A DNA stretch of 64,000 nucleotides from Brugia malayi (taxonomy: Eukaryota > Nematoda > Chromadorea > Rhabditida > Onchocercidae), in contig NW_025062475.1 in the NCBI RefSeq assembly GCF_000002995.4, positions 4,750,528 through 4,814,527 of the forward strand. The letters run 5' to 3'. Made by a program: the position numbers and the translations under genes. Positions 1,316-16,107 of this stretch are shown here, piece by piece; the stretch's first letter is position 1, and the number at the start of each line of letters is the position of its first letter. Below the pieces are notes generated by a model. That model was not told the DNA's origin. It saw only the letters and a list, made by a program, of their open reading frames with translations, and ran no database searches.

Positions 1316-1587
1316 CTAACGTGGAGCTTTCGTACAATGCTTCCTATGAGCGCTTAGATTATTCCTATAGATGAAAATTTTGCCACAATTTTCGCACTGA
1401 ACATTAATTTTGTGTGTTTCCTGATGAATGGAGAATGATGATGGATGAGTGAATGTTCGCCCACAACCGGGCACTCTGCATTCATAAATAAAAGGTTTGG
1501 GATGCGTTTTTCTGTGAGCTATGTACTCACTGTAATTCTTTGTTTTCATAGTACATCCGACATGGAGGCACTCGTAATTTTCCTCAT
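1316..1587 (-). CDS. zinc-finger cassette exon A4 (alternative last exon)
   Basis: A 272-nt terminal exon: acceptor TTTTTCAG just before 1587, phase 1, stop TAG at 1316. Joined to the constant exon (3810-4368) it gives a Gly/Asp-split codon (Asp) and 89 residues. It holds finger 1 (C-x4-C-x12-H-x3-H), finger 2 of the same form joined by a THPKPF linker that resembles the TGEKPF linker of DNA-binding C2H2 proteins, and finger 3 of C-x2-C-x12-H-x3-C type. The linker before finger 3 differs from its sisters (THKINVQC in place of HGPK). Its protein is identical over the finger region to cassette C2 at 15836-16107, in the opposite orientation. Confidence 0.78.
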
Positions 1588-1965
1588 CTGAAAAATTCTT
1601 TTACAACATTTGTTTTTATAATTCTATCGATATACTTAACAGCTCAGGTCACAGTTCTTTACTAGTTTTCTCATGTATTTAAAATTTTTTTTTTTTGTAA
1701 ATTTTCCGCTGCGATGAAATCATATCCAGTCCTCGATTCTTTGCTGTTAATACCTACAATTTTACACATTCATTCCATTCCTTAAACAGCAGATACAGTT
1801 TATCTTTTTTTATGTTGAATATAAATGAGAAGGATCTATCTCTTTGTTGAGTCTTTGTTAAATATTGATCTAATGAATTTTGTACTGCTATATAATGAAT
1901 CTTTCTCAGCTGTGCATTTCACTCCAGGAAGGCAAACATGTTAGAGTTCTGCTAAATTTGTGAAA

Positions 1966-2237
1966 CTAACGTAGAGCTTTCGTACAATACTTCTTGTGAG
2001 ACCTCAAATTATTTTTTGAGTTGAAAATTTTGCCACAGTTCCCGCACTGAAGTTTAGGCCCATGTGCTTCCTGATGGTTGTAGAATGATGATGAATGATT
2101 GAATGTTAGCCCACAACCGGGCACTCTGCATTCATATATAAAAGGTTCGGGATGTGTTTTTCTGTGAGTTATGTATTCCTTGCGACTGTTCATTTTCATT
2201 GTGCACCCGACGTGGGGGCACTCATATTTTTTCTCAT
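1966..2237 (-). CDS. zinc-finger cassette exon A3 (alternative last exon)
   Basis: A 272-nt exon with acceptor TTTTTCAG before 2237, phase 1, and its own TAG stop. Same three-finger layout: C2H2, C2H2, C2HC, all ligands present. Finger-1 helix reads MNSRKEYITH, finger 2 NHSSSFYNH, finger 3 NSKNNLRSH. The second half, and the sequence after the stop, matches cassette C1 of the third copy almost exactly, although the first half of C1 resembles a different cassette. An ATG upstream at 2259 lies within the intron and is not the start. Confidence 0.75.
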
Positions 2238-2681
2238 CTGAAAAATTCTTTTGTAACATTTGTTTTCATATTTCTATCGTACCAATTTGTAATTAATTAA
2301 CGCATTTTGAAGACTGATCATTAAAATGCTTGTGATAATATACTTCAAATAGCTTCTTTACTTGTTTTTTAATGTATTTAAATGAAAAATGTAAGTGTAG
2401 ATTTCCTGATGCGATGAGATCATCAGTTCTTGATTTTTTACTGTTTAATATCCACAATTTCACGTAAAAGCAAAGGCCTTCTTAAGAAAATAACTTTTAA
2501 ACTTATTCCATTCCTTGAACAGCAGGTACTGCTTATCTTTCTTTTTGTTGAATATAAACGAGAAGGATCTATTTCTTTAGTGAATTTGTACTGCTATACA
2601 ACGGTTTTTTCTCAACACATTTTAATGTGCATTTCACTTCAGATAGACAAACATGTTTAAAGTTCTGCTAAATTTGTGGAA

Positions 2682-2953
2682 CTAACATGCAGCTTTCGCG
2701 CAGCGTTTCTTATGAAAGAACAGATGGCTCTTATACTTGAAAATTTTACCACAGCTTCCACATTGAAGTTTAAGTCCATGTGTTTTCTGATGACCGGAGA
2801 ATGTTGATGGGTGATTGAATGTTAACCCACAACCGGGCATTCTGCATTCATAAATAAAAGGTTTGGGGTGCGTTTTCTTGTGAGCTACGTATTCATTGTA
2901 ATTCTTCGTTTTCATAGTACACCCGACATGGAGACACTCGTAATCTTCGTCAT
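2682..2953 (-). CDS. zinc-finger cassette exon A2 (alternative last exon)
   Basis: A 272-nt exon with acceptor TTTTCCAG before 2953, phase 1, ending in TAG. Three fingers as in the other cassettes; finger-3 helix KYKSHLFFH is distinctive. It ends KRCAKAAC rather than the KAPR found in several sister cassettes. All zinc ligands are intact. It lies 456 nt downstream of cassette A1, with no splice donor between, so it can only be used as an alternative final exon or from a separate transcript. Confidence 0.75.
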
Positions 2954-3408
2954 CTGGAAAATTGTTTTATAACATTCCTTTTTGCAATCCTATCATAGCA
3001 ATTTGCAATTAATTAACGCAATTTAAAAACTGGTCATAAAAATGTCGGTGATAATATATCTCATATAGCTTAGGTCACCTTTTCTTAGTTCTTTTTTCGT
3101 CTGTTTAAACAAAAAACGTAGTGGATTTTCCGCTGTGATAAGATCATGATTCTTTAGTATTTATATCACAATTTCACGTAAAAGCATAAGACTTTTTAAG
3201 AAAATAATTTTTAAGTTTATCGGATTCTGAGAACAGCAAGTACTGCTTATTGTTTTTTATATGGAACATAAACGAGAAGAATCTTTTTATTGAGTTCTTT
3301 GTGTCAAATTAATTCTTCACTGCTATACAACAATATTTCTCAGCTGTGCATTCCACTTCAGGTAGACAGTCAGGTAAAAAATGTTCAAAATTTTCTGAAT
3401 TTGTGGAA

Positions 3409-3680
3409 CTAACATGGAACATTCGCACAGCGTTTCCCGTGAGCGTTTAGTCTATACTTCGAGTTGAAGTTTTTGCCACAATTTTCGCACTTAAGTTTAG
3501 GCCCGTGTGTTTTCTGGTGATTGACGAGTGTTGACTGATGAGTGAATGTTCGTCCACAACCGGACACTTTGCATTCATAAATAAAAGGTTTGGGATGCGT
3601 TCTCCTATGAACCAGGTATTCCTGGTGACTTTTTGTTTTCATAGTACATCCGACATGGGGACACTCATAATTTTTCTTAT
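3409..3680 (-). CDS. zinc-finger cassette exon A1 (first alternative last exon)
   Basis: The cassette nearest the constant exon, separated by a 129-nt intron (GTAACATT ... TTTTTCAG). Splicing gives a continuous frame: constant domain, Asp, then KKNYECPHVGC. Fingers 1 and 2 are C2H2, finger 3 is C2HC (CENCGKNF...HGKRC). Predicted spliced protein 276 residues. An AATAAA lies about 120 nt after the stop on the minus strand (3290-3285), so this exon could be processed as a 3' end on its own. Confidence 0.8.
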
Positions 3681-3809
3681 CTGAAAAATTCTTCTATAAC
3701 ATTTGTTTTTGCAATTAGCATCTTCCATTTATCATTTGGTAAATAATTGTTATAGTTTGGAAAGTGATTATGGTTTAAATTTATATTAGAAGCAAAAGCT
3801 TAATGTTAC

Positions 3810-4368
3810 CTGTAATGGAAGCGCTTTGCAAAACAAATAACTCTGAATTTTTCGCAGTAACGAGATCAGTTATGTTTTCAAATTCCTTAGTATTTGCATC
3901 GTTAATTTCGCGGAAATGACTGAGATCTACGAAGTGCAGAGGGTCGGATGAAATGTTGCTATGCATATTCTCACCATCTGTTCTCGGCAATTCTTGCAAC
4001 TGAGAATTTCCTGTTGTAATTGGAACGGTTTCGATTTTCGAATCCTCATTGCTTCTATGCTCACTTTTCCACAAATCAGTGAAATCGAAGTGCGAAAAAT
4101 CAGATGAAATGCTAATCTCCAAATTCCTAGCAGATGTTCCTGGTAATTCTCTACCAGTATTTTCTGGTTCTCTTTTATGAACATCAATGCTTGAACCTAG
4201 GATCGACTCCAAATTGCTATTATCAAGGATGTTGAAACTAGTTGAGAAGTACCCATTGCTACAGTCATCCCATGTAATGTCATCGATGTCGAGATTTAGT
4301 AGAGAGATAGTTTCATTCTCAGCCAAAACAGTACAAAGCAGAAAGCTCAACCAGATGATTTGTGTCAT
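3810..4368 (-). CDS. constant first exon of zinc-finger gene copy A: signal peptide + acidic domain
   Basis: I chose the ATG at 4368 because it opens MTQIIWLSFLLCTVLA-ENE, a textbook signal peptide with an AxA-like cleavage site, and a trans-splice-like acceptor (AAAAATTCAG) lies 27 nt upstream. An upstream in-frame extension begins only with TTG. The exon encodes 186 residues plus one base and ends ATTACAG/GTAACATT (phase 1). After the signal peptide the chain is acidic and Ser/Asn-rich, with sequons NET, NIS and NIT and an imperfect internal repeat (ELPGTSARNLEISISSDFSH against ELPRTDGENMHSNISSDPLH). No known family is recognised. Four cassette exons in matching phase follow on the same strand. 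Destination is uncertain: the signal peptide suggests secretion, the fingers suggest nucleic-acid binding. Confidence 0.8.
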
Positions 4369-5633
4369 TGAAATGAAGAGCAAGATGAAAAACTGAATTT
4401 TTACAATGACAGAAATACTCGATTGAAAGTCTTTATTTCAGATTGGTTGGAATTAAACGGCCAAAGGTTTAAACAGTTTTTAATCTGTCTTATTTGCATC
4501 ATTCCTCATATTTTTTTCCTTTCACTCTAATTTTTCCATTCTTAAATTAATAGCTGATGAATACGCTTTTGGACTGTATGAATAAAAGATTAAAAATTAA
4601 ATTGTCATGCATGAAAAATTAAATTCATACAGCCATCAATTGTTACCTGTCGTGTAACTCCTGATAATTAATTAATATCACTTCATCATTTTTCATTAAT
4701 TTGAAAATATTTCTAAAAGACTCTACAAGTGCGCAAGAATGAGAAGCTGCACGATATTTCTGATAATATCATCAGAATGATGCAGAAATTCTACAACTTC
4801 ATTATGATAATTCTAATCATTATTTATCAGATGAATCTCACTCTTTTTGTTTCAATATTCTATAACTTTCCAATTCTTTTACTTCTATTTTTCTTCTCAT
4901 TGAGTATTACATTTTCAATTTACACTTAACTGACGTACTGTACAGGAATCTGACTGAAATGTTAACATTTCATGCTTAATCTAGTAGGATTACGTCACAT
5001 GAAACACAATAAATCTTTTGTTATTCTCTAGTAAAAAAATCGGGTGACAAAAATTTTGTTTGAACCAATTGTGAAAAAACATGAATGGATAATGTTATAA
5101 AAATGTACAACAGAAAATGTAAAAGAAATGGAAAGTTATAGAATATTGAAACAAAAAGAGTGAGATTCATCTGATAAATAATGATTAGAATTATCATAAT
5201 GAAGTTGTAGAATTTCTGCATCATTCTGATGATATTATCAGAAATATCGTGCAGCTTCTCATTCTTGCGCACTTGTAGAGTCTTTTTAGAAATATTTTCA
5301 AATTAATGAAAAATGATGAAGTGGTATTAATTAATTATCAGGAGTTACACGACAGGTAACAATTGATGGCCGTATGAATTTAATTTTTCATGCATGACAA
5401 TTTAATTTTTAATCTTTTATTCATACAGTCCAAAAGCGTATTCATCAGCTATTAATTTAAGAATGGAAAAATTAGAGTGAAAGGAAAAAAATATGAGGAA
5501 TGATGCAAATAAGACAGATTAAAAACTGTTTAAACCTTTGGCCGTTTAATTCCAACCAATCTGAAATAAAGACTTTCAATCGAGTATTTCTGTCATTGTA
5601 AAAATTCAGTTTTTCATCTTGCTCTTCATTTCA
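4369..5633. promoter_or_regulatory. shared divergent 5' region of zinc-finger genes A and B
   Basis: The two constant exons point away from each other across 1,265 bp. About 500 bp on each side (4369-4871 and 5130-5633) are near-perfect inverted copies, so both genes carry the same upstream sequence, including the acceptor-like AAAAATTCAG before each ATG. The central stretch 4872-5120 belongs to copy A only; it also appears upstream of copy C (about 13,758-13,990). ORFs here mirror one another and are not conserved proteins; I treat them as non-coding. Confidence 0.6.
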
Positions 5634-6192
5634 ATGACACAAATCATCTGGTTGAGCTTTCTGCTTTGTACTGTTTTGGCTGAGAATGAAACTATCTCTC
5701 TACTAAATCTCGACATCGATAACATTACATGGGATGACTGTAGCAATGGGTACTTCTCAACTAGTTTCAACATCCTTGATAATAGCAATTTGGAGTCGAT
5801 CCTAGGTTCAAGCATTGATGTTCATAAAAGAGAACCAGAAAATACTGGTAGAGAATTACCAGGAACATCTGCTAGGAATTTGGAGATTAGCATTTCATCT
5901 GATTTTTCGCACTTCGATTTCACTGATTTGTGGAAAAGTGAGCATAGAAGCAATGAGGATTCGAAAATCGAAACCGTTCCAATTACAACAGGAAATTCTC
6001 AGTTGCAAGAATTGCCGAGAACAGATGGTGAGAATATGCATAGCAGCATTTCATCCGACCCTCTGCACTTCGTAGATCTCAGTCATTTCCGCGAAATTAA
6101 CGATGCAAATACTAAGGAATTTGAAAACATAACTGATCTCGTTACTGCGAAAAATTCAGAGTTATTTGTTTTGCAAAGCGCTTCCATTACAG
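5634..6192 (+). CDS. constant first exon of zinc-finger gene copy B
   Basis: The same 186-codon exon as copy A, on the opposite strand, from ATG 5634 to the donor after 6192 (ATTACAG/GTAACATT, phase 1). Seen differences from A include Asn for Asp in the DIDDITW stretch and Ser for Asn in the NMHSNISS stretch, which removes one N-glycosylation sequon. Reading on without splicing runs through the intron to a stop at 6314, exactly across the acceptor of cassette B1, so only the spliced form yields fingers. Confidence 0.8.
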
Positions 6193-6310
6193 GTAACATT
6201 AAGCTTTTAAATTTAAACCATAATCACTTTCCAAACTATAACAATTATTTACCAAATGATAAATGGAAGATGCTAATTGCAAAAACAAATGTTATAGAAG
6301 AATTTTTCAG

Positions 6311-6582
6311 ATAAGAAAAATTATGAGTGTCCCCATATCGGATGTACTATGAAAACAAAAAGTCACCAGGAATACATGGCTCATAGGAGAACTCATCCCA
6401 AGCCTTTTATTTATGAATGCAAAGTGTCCGGTTGTGTGTTAACATTCAATCATCCATCATCATTCTATAGTCATCAGAAAACACATGGGCCTAAACTTCA
6501 GTGCGAAACCTGTGGCAAAATTTTCAACTGTGAGAAGAATCTTAGATCTCACAAGAAGCGTTGTACGAAAGCTCCACGTTAG
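6311..6582 (+). CDS. zinc-finger cassette exon B1
   Basis: Acceptor AATTTTTCAG ends at 6310; the phase-1 exon continues to TAG at 6582. It lies 118 nt after the constant exon. Fingers: CPHIGC..., CKVSGC..., and the C2HC finger CETCGKIF...HKKRC. Finger-3 helix is NCEKNLRSH. The second-finger core reads VLTFNHPSSFYSH, where most sisters have GRTF or GLTF, so the Gly after the second Cys is replaced. All metal ligands are present. Confidence 0.78.
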
Positions 6583-6850: not shown

Positions 6851-7122
6851 TTAAGGAAAATTACGAGTGTCCCCATGTCGGATGTACTATGAAAACGAAG
6901 AATTACAATGAATACATAGCTCACAAGAAAACACACCCCAAACCTTTTATTTATGAATGCAGAATGCCCGGTTGTGGGCGAACATTCAATCATCCATCAA
7001 CATTCTACGGTCATCAGAAAACACATGGACCTAAATTTCAGTGCGGAAGCTGTGGTAAAATTTTCAACTGTAAGAGTAATCTGGTCTTTCACAAGAAGCG
7101 CTGCGCGAAAATTGCATGTTAG
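6851..7122 (+). CDS. zinc-finger cassette exon B2
   Basis: Acceptor GTTTTTACAG ends at 6850. The exon starts TTAAG, so the joint codon becomes Val instead of the Asp seen in the other cassettes; phase is still 1. Finger 2 helix NHPSTFYGH, finger 3 NCKSNLVFH. Closest to cassette A2 overall. Stop TAG at 7122, followed by a tail resembling the others (TTCCACAAATTT). Confidence 0.76.
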
Positions 7123-7417: not shown

Positions 7418-7689
7418 ATAAGGATAATTACGTGTGTCCCCATGTTGGATGTACTATGAAAACGAAGAGTCGCAATGAATATATAGATCACAGAAAAACA
7501 CACCCCAAACCTTTTATTTATGAATGCAAAGTGTCCGGTTGTGGGTTAACATTTAATTATCCATCATCATTCTCCTTTCATCAGAAAGCACATGGGCCTA
7601 AAGTTCAGTGCGAAAAATGTGGCAAAATTTTCATCTATAAGGGAAATCTGAGATCTCACAGGCAGCGATGCATGAAAACTCCACGTTAG
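7418..7689 (+). CDS. zinc-finger cassette exon B3
   Basis: Acceptor GCTTTTCAG ends at 7417, phase 1, stop TAG 7689. Fingers: CPHVGC with helix KSRNEYIDH, CKVSGC with helix NYPSSFSFH, and CEKCGKIF with helix IYKGNLRSH ending HRQRC. All ligands are intact. It is the last complete cassette of copy B. Confidence 0.76.
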
Positions 7690-8010: not shown

Positions 8011-8649
8011 CTAAACACTTTTGCCAACTGCAAGTGAAATGTACGCAAAAATGCGTTGCGAAACATTCGTATCCGTGGTATAGCAAAATAAAATTCTTAA
8101 TATACTGCGATGTACAGAAGGTATATTGAAATGCATTTCACTGGTTATTCCTACAGCAAACTCTTCAATTCTTTTACATCTCAAAATATTCATTGTAGGA
8201 GTGAAAGAAGAGATACATAATTCTAGCATACATTGGGAGTGACACAGAAGAATACGTAGGAGTCAGAAGATGCGCGTCATCAATATGCTACAGACAATTT
8301 TTTGATGAAATTATGTTATTTAACTATCTGATATGTTTCACATTTATCTTTTTTCTAACTATATTTCATGGAAATGACATAAACATTCTGATTAATGGAG
8401 ATATGTAAAGTTCAAAGATCAAAACATTTGGATATCTAAAATAACAACCTGTTAGTTCCAACTCTAAAATTGATTTGATCAGTGGGTTCTGTGCATGACT
8501 TTTGCGCCGGTTACTTTATTTCACTCTTGTATTGGTTTTTCAATAACAGGAGTGAAATTTTGAAAATGAAAGCTTTTGTATTGCCAAGTGACATGAGCGA
8601 CACTAAAATCAGTGATGGTGGGGGGGGATAAATTAAAATTTTTTATAAG
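8011..8649. other. intergenic, no gene seen
   Basis: The first 150 bases still resemble the sequence that follows intact cassettes (CTAAACAC, GTGAAATG, TATAGCA motifs). After about 8200 I see no homology to other parts of the window and no coding pattern; a G9 run occurs near 8620. Confidence 0.5.
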
Positions 8650-14503: not shown

Positions 14504-15062
14504 ATGACACAAATCATCTGGTTGAGCTTTCTGCTTTGTACTGTTTTGGCTGAGAATGAAACTATCTCTCTACTAAATCTCGACATCGATGACATTACAT
14601 GGGATGACTGTAGCAATGGGTACTTCTCAACTAGTTTCAACATCCTTGATAATAGCAATTTGGAGTCGATCCTAGGTTCAAGCATTGATGTTCATAAAAG
14701 AGATCCAGAAAATACTGGTAGAGAATTACCAGGATCATCTGCTAGGAATTTGGAGATTAGCATTTCATCTGATTTTTCGCACTTCGATTTCACTGATTTG
14801 TGGAAAAGTGAGCATAGAAGCAATGAGGATTCGAAAATCGAAACCGTCCCAATTACAACAGGAAACTCTCAGTTGCAAGAATTGCCGAGAACAGATGGTG
14901 AGAATATGCATAGCAGCATTTCATCCGACCCTCTACACTTCGTAGATCTCAGTCATTTCCGCGAAATTAACGATGCAAGTACTAAGGAATTTGAAAACAT
15001 AACTGATCTCGTTACTGCGAAAAATTCAGAGTTATTTGTTTTGCAAAGCGCTTCCATTACAG
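14504..15062 (+). CDS. constant first exon of zinc-finger gene copy C
   Basis: Same exon as copies A and B: ATG 14504, signal peptide MTQIIWLSFLLCTVLA, donor after 15062 in phase 1. Substitutions relative to A include Asp for Glu in HKREPE, Ser for Thr in ELPGTS and Ser for Asn in INDANT, plus loss of the NIS sequon as in B. A trans-splice-like acceptor AAAAATTCAG precedes the ATG by 27 nt. Two cassettes follow. The open frame and near identity suggest recent duplication or gene conversion. Confidence 0.8.
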
Positions 15063-15191: not shown

Positions 15192-15457
15192 ATAAGAAAA
15201 ATTATGAGTGTCCCCATGTCGGATGTACTATGAAAACAAAGAATTACAATGAATACATAGCTCACAAGAAAACACACCCCAAACCTTTTATTTATGAATG
15301 CAGAATGCCCGGTTGTGGGCGAACATTCAATCATCCATCATCATTCTACAACCATCAGGAAGCACATGGGCCTAAACTTCAGTGCGGGAACTGTGGCAAA
15401 ATTTTCAACTCAAAAAATAATTTGAGGTCTCACAAGAAGCATTGTACGAAAGCATAG
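15192..15457 (+). CDS. zinc-finger cassette exon C1 (chimaeric)
   Basis: Acceptor AATTTTTCAG ends at 15191, phase 1. The first half (finger 1 KNYNEYIAHKK, start of finger 2 CRMPGCGRTFNHP) is like cassettes B2/A2; the second half (SSFYNHQEAHGPKLQCGNC to the end) is like A3, and so is the sequence after the stop. An 8-bp deletion near the end removes CTCCACGT, so the protein stops at KHCTKA. All three fingers stay complete. Predicted spliced protein 274 residues. Confidence 0.76.
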
Positions 15458-15835: not shown

Positions 15836-16107
15836 ATGAGGAAAATTACGAGTGCCTCCATGTCGGATGTACTATGAAAACAAAGAATTACAGTGAGTAC
15901 ATAGCTCACAGAAAAACGCATCCCAAACCTTTTATTTATGAATGCAGAGTGCCCGGTTGTGGGCGAACATTCACTCATCCATCATCATTCTCCATTCATC
16001 AGGAAACACACAAAATTAATGTTCAGTGCGAAAATTGTGGCAAAATTTTCATCTATAGGAATAATCTAAGCGCTCATAGGAAGCATTGTACGAAAGCTCC
16101 ACGTTAG
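15836..16107 (+). CDS. zinc-finger cassette exon C2
   Basis: Acceptor ATTTTTCAG ends at 15835, phase 1, stop TAG 16107. The finger-region protein is identical to cassette A4, with the THKINVQC linker and finger-3 helix IYRNNLSAH. Flanking introns are near identical to A4's as well. This anchors the 3' ends of units A and C as true equivalents. Confidence 0.78.

Follow-up and report, generated by a model that had tools for sequence, protein, structure and literature searches.

We describe here three copies (A, B, and C) of a gene in a 64,000-nucleotide (nt) stretch of the Brugia malayi genome (contig NW_025062475.1, positions 4,750,528 to 4,814,527; hereafter the window, numbered from its first letter), in which a single leader exon is followed downstream by 4, 3, and 2 exon cassettes respectively, each cassette encoding three zinc fingers. 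The best explanation of the whole, to which we would give roughly three chances in four, is that these are poly-zinc-finger genes of secreted appearance whose cassettes are chained to one another by splicing, and whose cassette boundaries carry a stop codon within the splice donor. Specifically, i) exon 1 would supply an N-terminus resembling a signal peptide, together with an acidic region left unfolded by AlphaFold; ii) the exons that follow in an array would be symmetric (phase 1-1; 267 nt long in the window) and encode three fingers each; iii) the main product would come from splicing consecutive cassettes together, giving 6, 9, or 12 fingers; iv) at each [C/T]|GTTAGT boundary, use of the donor would add three fingers, and translation would stop at the internal TAG where the donor is unused; and v) any cassette would be fit to be internal or last, a dual boundary by virtue of which arrays could grow, shrink, or swap cassettes through unequal crossing-over and still keep a proper end.

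Cassettes that end in a stop codon inside a splice donor

All nine window cassettes begin at a phase-1 acceptor (CAG|AT or CAG|TT), encode three fingers, and keep every zinc ligand (9/9), much as an initial annotation of this DNA had claimed, and all score above the Pfam cut-off for PF00096 (9/9). The spacing in the first finger is C-x4-C, and the third finger is of the C2HC rather than the C2H2 type. The AlphaFold model of one cassette contains three beta-beta-alpha fingers, with a mean confidence score (pLDDT) of 81. The same annotation had held that each cassette has its own stop and that no donor follows any of them, and this needs correction: 8 of the 9 end in [C/T]|GTTAGT, a phase-1 donor whose positions +3 to +5 are the TAG, so that the frame at the cassette end reads xGT TAG T with the stop codon inside the donor. 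Eight of the nine are accordingly 267-nt exons in phase 1 at both ends. The exception is cassette 1 of copy C, in which the GT is gone and the TAG is still present.

On the minus strand, copy A has its cassette 1 at 3414..3680 (three fingers, symmetric phase 1-1, 267 nt, T|GTTAGT, in-frame TAG at 3409-3411), cassette 2 at 2687..2953 (T|GTTAGT, TAG at 2682-2684), cassette 3 at 1971..2237 (C|GTTAGT, TAG at 1966-1968), and cassette 4, the last found, at 1316..1587 (C|GTTAGT retained, TAG at 1316-1318). Copy B lies on the plus strand with cassettes at 6311..6577 (C|GTTAGT) and 6851..7117 (T|GTTAGT), each joined to the next in the deposited model P0013, and at 7418..7684 (C|GTTAGT, TAG at 7687-7689). 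Copy C, also on the plus strand, has cassette 1 at 15192..15457, a mosaic exon which has lost the GT donor, kept the TAG, and could serve as a last exon only, and cassette 2 at 15836..16107, whose coding DNA is the same as that of copy A cassette 4 and which retains C|GTTAGT.

Conservation of the donor and of the in-frame stop

The donor is conserved beyond the window. In the analysed stretches of an 86.8 megabase genome we found 77 cassette matches, of which 8 partial or cut ones were dropped and 69 full-length ones with downstream sequence were used. The strict three-finger layout is kept by 58 of the 69 (none of the 11 that fail the strict spacing comes from the window); 61 of the 69 end in GTTAGT, the next base being T in all 61, and GTTAGT is present even in relatives that are only ~50-55% identical in protein. 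A tree was made of the 51 unique strict-layout cassettes, and the 45 with their end at the standard place were scored for the donor: positions +1 to +7 (GTTAGTT) underwent 2, 0, 0, 0, 1, 1, and 0 changes, compared with a mean of 5.25 changes per core third codon position (51 cassettes) and 7-16 at intron positions +18 to +32. Only cassettes 4272238 and 4499170 carry these four donor changes, and in its own array each is the last cassette still intact. Positions +1, +2, +6, and +7 are not required for the stop codon, and when the four were compared jointly with samples drawn from third positions, P was 0.00025; since relatedness and gene conversion act on all sites alike, the local contrast holds. 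Judged from these sequence comparisons, the donor at cassette ends is not chance. We also observed that positions +12 to +17 of the cassette introns, within a CAAATTT-like stretch at +8 to +17, show 1-6 changes, compared with the 7-16 at +18 to +32.

At +3, all 45 scored cassettes have T. Of the 14 leader exons, 11 have a donor at the end of the match; these carry A at that position and then run at least 9 codons without an in-phase stop. Because A is the usual +3 base of nematode donors, a fixed T goes beyond what splicing needs, and the in-frame TAG therefore seems to be maintained as well. The simplest reason for its maintenance would be the need for a stop in the last cassette, combined with the movement of cassettes from place to place; a bolder one is that unspliced transcripts yield shorter proteins.

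Probable serial joining of the cassettes

Adjacent cassettes are for the most part equipped to be joined. We examined 45 pairs of neighbouring, nearly complete cassettes: the standard donor is present in 42, and 2 of the other 3 have GTATGT in phase 1, a donor used by model P0028; a clear phase-1 AG lies directly before the next finger in 41 of the 42 standard-donor pairs (the acceptor script considered in-phase AGs only). Junction peptides, consisting of the last residues of one cassette, any one residue, and the first residues of the next, are present in deposited proteins for 23 of the 42, the protein database having been clustered at 90% identity. P0013 corresponds to copy B and runs from the leader through 3 cassettes in series to a short last exon, which we placed by eye at 8199..8242 on the plus strand (ending VKEEIHNSSIHWE) and whose place after cassette 3 is known from a deposited model alone. 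Cassettes are likewise chained in models of B. malayi, B. pahangi (P0015, P0018, and others), and Wuchereria bancrofti (P0007, P0019, and P0025). According to the consulted portion of the source paper, the B. pahangi annotation drew on reads from Illumina and direct-RNA sequencing (PMC13261522), and this RNA-informed annotation lends the chained models indirect support. Finally, the last codon is TGT (cysteine) in 12 of 42 internal cassettes but in none of 13 donor-bearing last cassettes (one-sided P ~0.025, calculated by hand and ignoring kinship), as though this codon were usually not read as cysteine.

The initial annotation had instead envisaged one N-terminus with interchangeable fingers, on the pattern of the alternative last exons of Drosophila lola and mod(mdg4): the leader would be spliced to a single cassette at a time, and every cassette would supply a stop and a 3′ end of its own. 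Several features fit such an arrangement, including the in-frame stop straight after the third finger in each window cassette, a cassette in copy C able only to end a transcript, and purifying selection on the cassettes (ratio of nonsynonymous to synonymous divergence, omega, 0.46). It would, however, leave the conservation of +1, +2, +6, and +7, all outside the stop codon, unexplained; deposited models chain cassettes; and the polyadenylation hexamer AATAAA is not enriched within 200 nt after internal cassettes, where it follows 11 of 41 unique cassettes compared with 15.7 expected from shuffled sequence. We consider alternative last exons improbable and, from the sequence and the models, serial splicing to 6-, 9-, or 12-finger proteins more likely than interchangeable last exons. 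What survives of the earlier proposal is that one leader serves a series of finger exons; the conserved 5′ splice site, the absence of polyadenylation signal enrichment, and the chained models speak for joining them in series. As a discriminating test in its own right the hexamer proved weak and was set aside, AATAAA being common in AT-rich DNA and enriched nowhere, including within 200 nt after last cassettes (2 of 17, compared with 5.6 in shuffles).

A number of observations count against serial splicing and should be weighed together: i) 19 of the 42 junctions occur in no deposited model examined; ii) gene predictors would favour joining exons of this kind in any case; iii) some models are faulty, P0012 for instance joining inside two cassettes; iv) in our first scoring GTTAGT was not significantly commoner in internal than in last cassettes (42 of 46 compared with 13 of 17, p = 0.195, with 6 more cassettes unplaced), and the recount that gave 44 of 45 and 13 of 18 (p = 0.006) was post hoc, made after the data had been seen; v) last cassettes mostly retain the donor, which duplication explains and splicing does not require; vi) copy C cassette 1 is internal and has nonetheless lost its donor; and vii) our argument about the stop leans on a general preference for A at +3 in nematode donors. 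The recount took account of what the four internal exceptions are: two have phase-1 GTATGT, in one case the only cassette further on is broken, and one is copy C cassette 1.

Serial splicing may also be combined with regulated stopping or skipping, to give a nested set of 3-, 6-, 9-, and 12-finger proteins. This overlaps with the explanation we prefer, and isoforms cut short at one or another cassette, or the skipping of exons, are possible. Mixed use of this kind fits the T that all 45 cassettes have at +3, which preserves the TAG, and the cassette of copy C that has lost its donor but kept its stop. The fixed TAG can, however, be explained without isoforms by the last cassette's need for a stop together with positional exchange, and polyadenylation signals are not enriched between cassettes. 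We rate regulated mixed use well short of even odds.

The leader exon and the question of export

The leader exon lies at 3810..4368 (minus strand) in copy A, at 5634..6192 (plus strand) in copy B, and at 14504..15062 (plus strand) in copy C, in each case comprising 186 codons plus 1 base, so that the exon of 186 codons ending in phase 1 described by the initial annotation is borne out at all three places. Its product begins much like a signal peptide and includes an acidic region, and the exon ends at a phase-1 donor (ACAG|GTAACA in all three); between the leaders of A and B there are 0 synonymous and 2 nonsynonymous changes, and the leader is 99% identical to B. malayi protein P0001. The N-terminus has a hydrophobic stretch followed by a V-L-A cleavage-like site, as judged by eye, and an N-glycosylation sequon is present at residue 18 in 3 of 3 window copies. 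Pfam has no family for the leader (best E 0.17), and AlphaFold gives no confident fold for the leader region (mean pLDDT 36).

Earlier work has already established the gene class, the stage to which it belongs, and its secretion. In the portions of the published reports available to us, 44 C2H2 genes are listed among 148 raised in microfilariae (PMC3236722), C2H2 terms are enriched in B. malayi microfilariae (PMC13261522), a table of microfilaria-preferred transcripts includes SignalP-positive C2H2 proteins (PMC2874553), six C2H2 proteins occur in microfilarial secretions (PMC2569413), and two C2H2 expansions are confined almost entirely to the secretory cell of microfilariae (PMC10319439). 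The idea that the product is exported to the host, which the initial annotation had ventured, thus has published support at the level of the class in the consulted passages (PMC2569413, PMC10319439), but these reports are not tied to the window copies. Two of the six accessions we searched for were found in the literature, both in a single paper already known to us and neither tied to the window copies, and for the gene identifiers of the copies we found no paper.

The same proteins may instead stay inside as nuclear regulators of the secretory cell, with the leader a chance hydrophobic start. In keeping with this, the one cassette tested resembles the DNA-binding fingers of ZNF568, PRDM9, GLI, and KLF; the class is named as transcription factors in the excerpted text of PMC10319439; and in the secretions table of PMC2569413, as far as that table was available, the one C2H2 row consulted has N where other rows of the table have Y, in what we take to be the signal-peptide column. 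Against it stand the SignalP-positive C2H2 proteins among microfilaria-preferred transcripts in the accessible part of PMC2874553, the detection of C2H2 proteins in microfilarial secretions reported in that of PMC2569413, and the residue-18 sequon in the 3 window copies. We regard a purely nuclear role as doubtful, and secretion to the host as an inference; an extracellular role, such as binding host nucleic acid, glycans, or zinc, is possible.

Evolution of the arrays

The leaders look homogenised or recently copied and the cassettes look shuffled, to judge from their sequences. Copies A and B stand head to head, with 925-nt inverted arms at 3794-4718 and 5284-6208 separated by 565 nt. The arms cover the leader and its 5′ flank, and their complementarity is reported as 100% (a rounded figure); the palindrome may drive gene conversion. 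Synonymous divergence (dS) between cassettes of copies A and B ranges from 0.18 to 0.51. Copy C cassette 1 combines at least two parental cassettes: the 5′ part is nearest to copy A cassette 1 and copy B cassette 2, and the 3′ part, together with the following intron, is nearest to copy A cassette 3 (338 of 340 intron bases match). It is, in effect, a natural stop-only cassette. Elsewhere the neighbouring cassettes C135:3420012 and 3420661 are seemingly identical in score, acceptor, and end, which suggests recent tandem growth of that array.

Purifying selection acts on the cassettes (over 21 disjoint pairs omega is 0.46, bootstrap 0.37-0.57). It is therefore very improbable that the distal cassettes are mostly decaying duplicates with only the first in use; donors are mostly intact, and 58 of 69 cassettes keep the strict layout. 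Decay does occur locally, as shown by an inverted pair with internal stops at C135:5566722-5571219, a split cassette at an array end at C135:4500241-4500500, and an altered end in 4 of 17 last cassettes. Entropy and nonsynonymous divergence (dN) were computed for strict-layout cassettes only (58 of 69, 51 unique), in which conservation of the ligands is built in by the filter. Residues at base contacts are more variable than others (entropy 1.74 compared with 1.24, permutation P 0.023), and dN is 0.147 for contact helix positions, 0.161 for non-contact helix positions, and 0.092 for the remainder, with an overall dS of 0.197. We considered, and rejected, hypervariable base contacts of the PRDM9 kind; the non-contact helix evolves equally fast, and contact dN is not above overall dS.

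The genome holds 22 matches to the leader, 14 of them strong (1 of the 14 has an internal stop, and 2 are without the first 8 residues), and 66 matches to a divergent leader, 45 of them at E < 1e-38; several of the latter have internal stops, and some weaker ones are of the present type. At least 150 cassette matches were found (150 scored among 259 candidates), a few with internal stops. Protein database searches at the thresholds used found the family only in Brugia and Wuchereria, apart from 1 generic beetle zinc-finger match; these searches need shared five-residue words, so that distant filarial relatives may have escaped them.

An interpretation bolder than ours would make each boundary a selected "extend or stop" switch, yielding nested secreted proteins of 3, 6, 9, and 12 fingers whose outward helices diversify while the leader is homogenised, as a host-facing repertoire specific to the lymphatic filariae; taken in all its parts, we think this rather unlikely.

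Relation to known systems and implications

Drosophila lola, mod(mdg4), and fruitless combine a common N-terminal part containing a BTB domain with alternative zinc-finger 3′ ends. The Brugia genes resemble them in that a shared 5′ exon precedes a series of same-strand zinc-finger exons, but the Brugia cassettes are symmetric, donor-bearing, and apparently serial, and the leader is signal-peptide-like rather than BTB. PRDM9 and the KRAB zinc-finger genes carry fast-changing tandem fingers within one exon; finger number and helix residues vary in the Brugia arrays too, but there are three fingers per exon, and change is spread over the helices and not confined to base contacts. Tandem exon duplication is known to build repeat proteins from symmetric exons, since phase 1-1 exons can be added or lost without a change of frame. 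The Brugia cassettes share phase 1-1, and differ in having an in-frame stop in the donor, with the first base of the stop fixed in 45 of 45.

The published microfilarial C2H2 expansions of Brugia concern the same organism and domain class, many of the proteins having predicted signal peptides (PMC10319439, PMC3236722, PMC2874553, PMC2569413). The passages of these papers that we could consult describe neither an array of such exons nor a conserved boundary of the stop-in-donor kind, and we found no link between their accessions and the window copies; nor were the array or the boundary described in the wider literature searched, which comprised titles, abstract openings, and passages, with few subscription papers.

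A family with 14 strong leader matches, 45 of a divergent leader (some of both with internal stops), and at least 150 cassette matches thereby gains a gene plan, and with it a rule for predicting proteins and exact junctions. If serial splicing is true, gene models in which a cassette is split off, or which are cut at the TAG, are wrong, with consequences for proteomics and for the choice of antigens in lymphatic filariasis.

At the edge of the array, positions 1-582 of the window (minus strand) contain an open frame matching DUF1759 (E 2.8e-13), a domain that forms part of BEL/Pao retrotransposon proteins.

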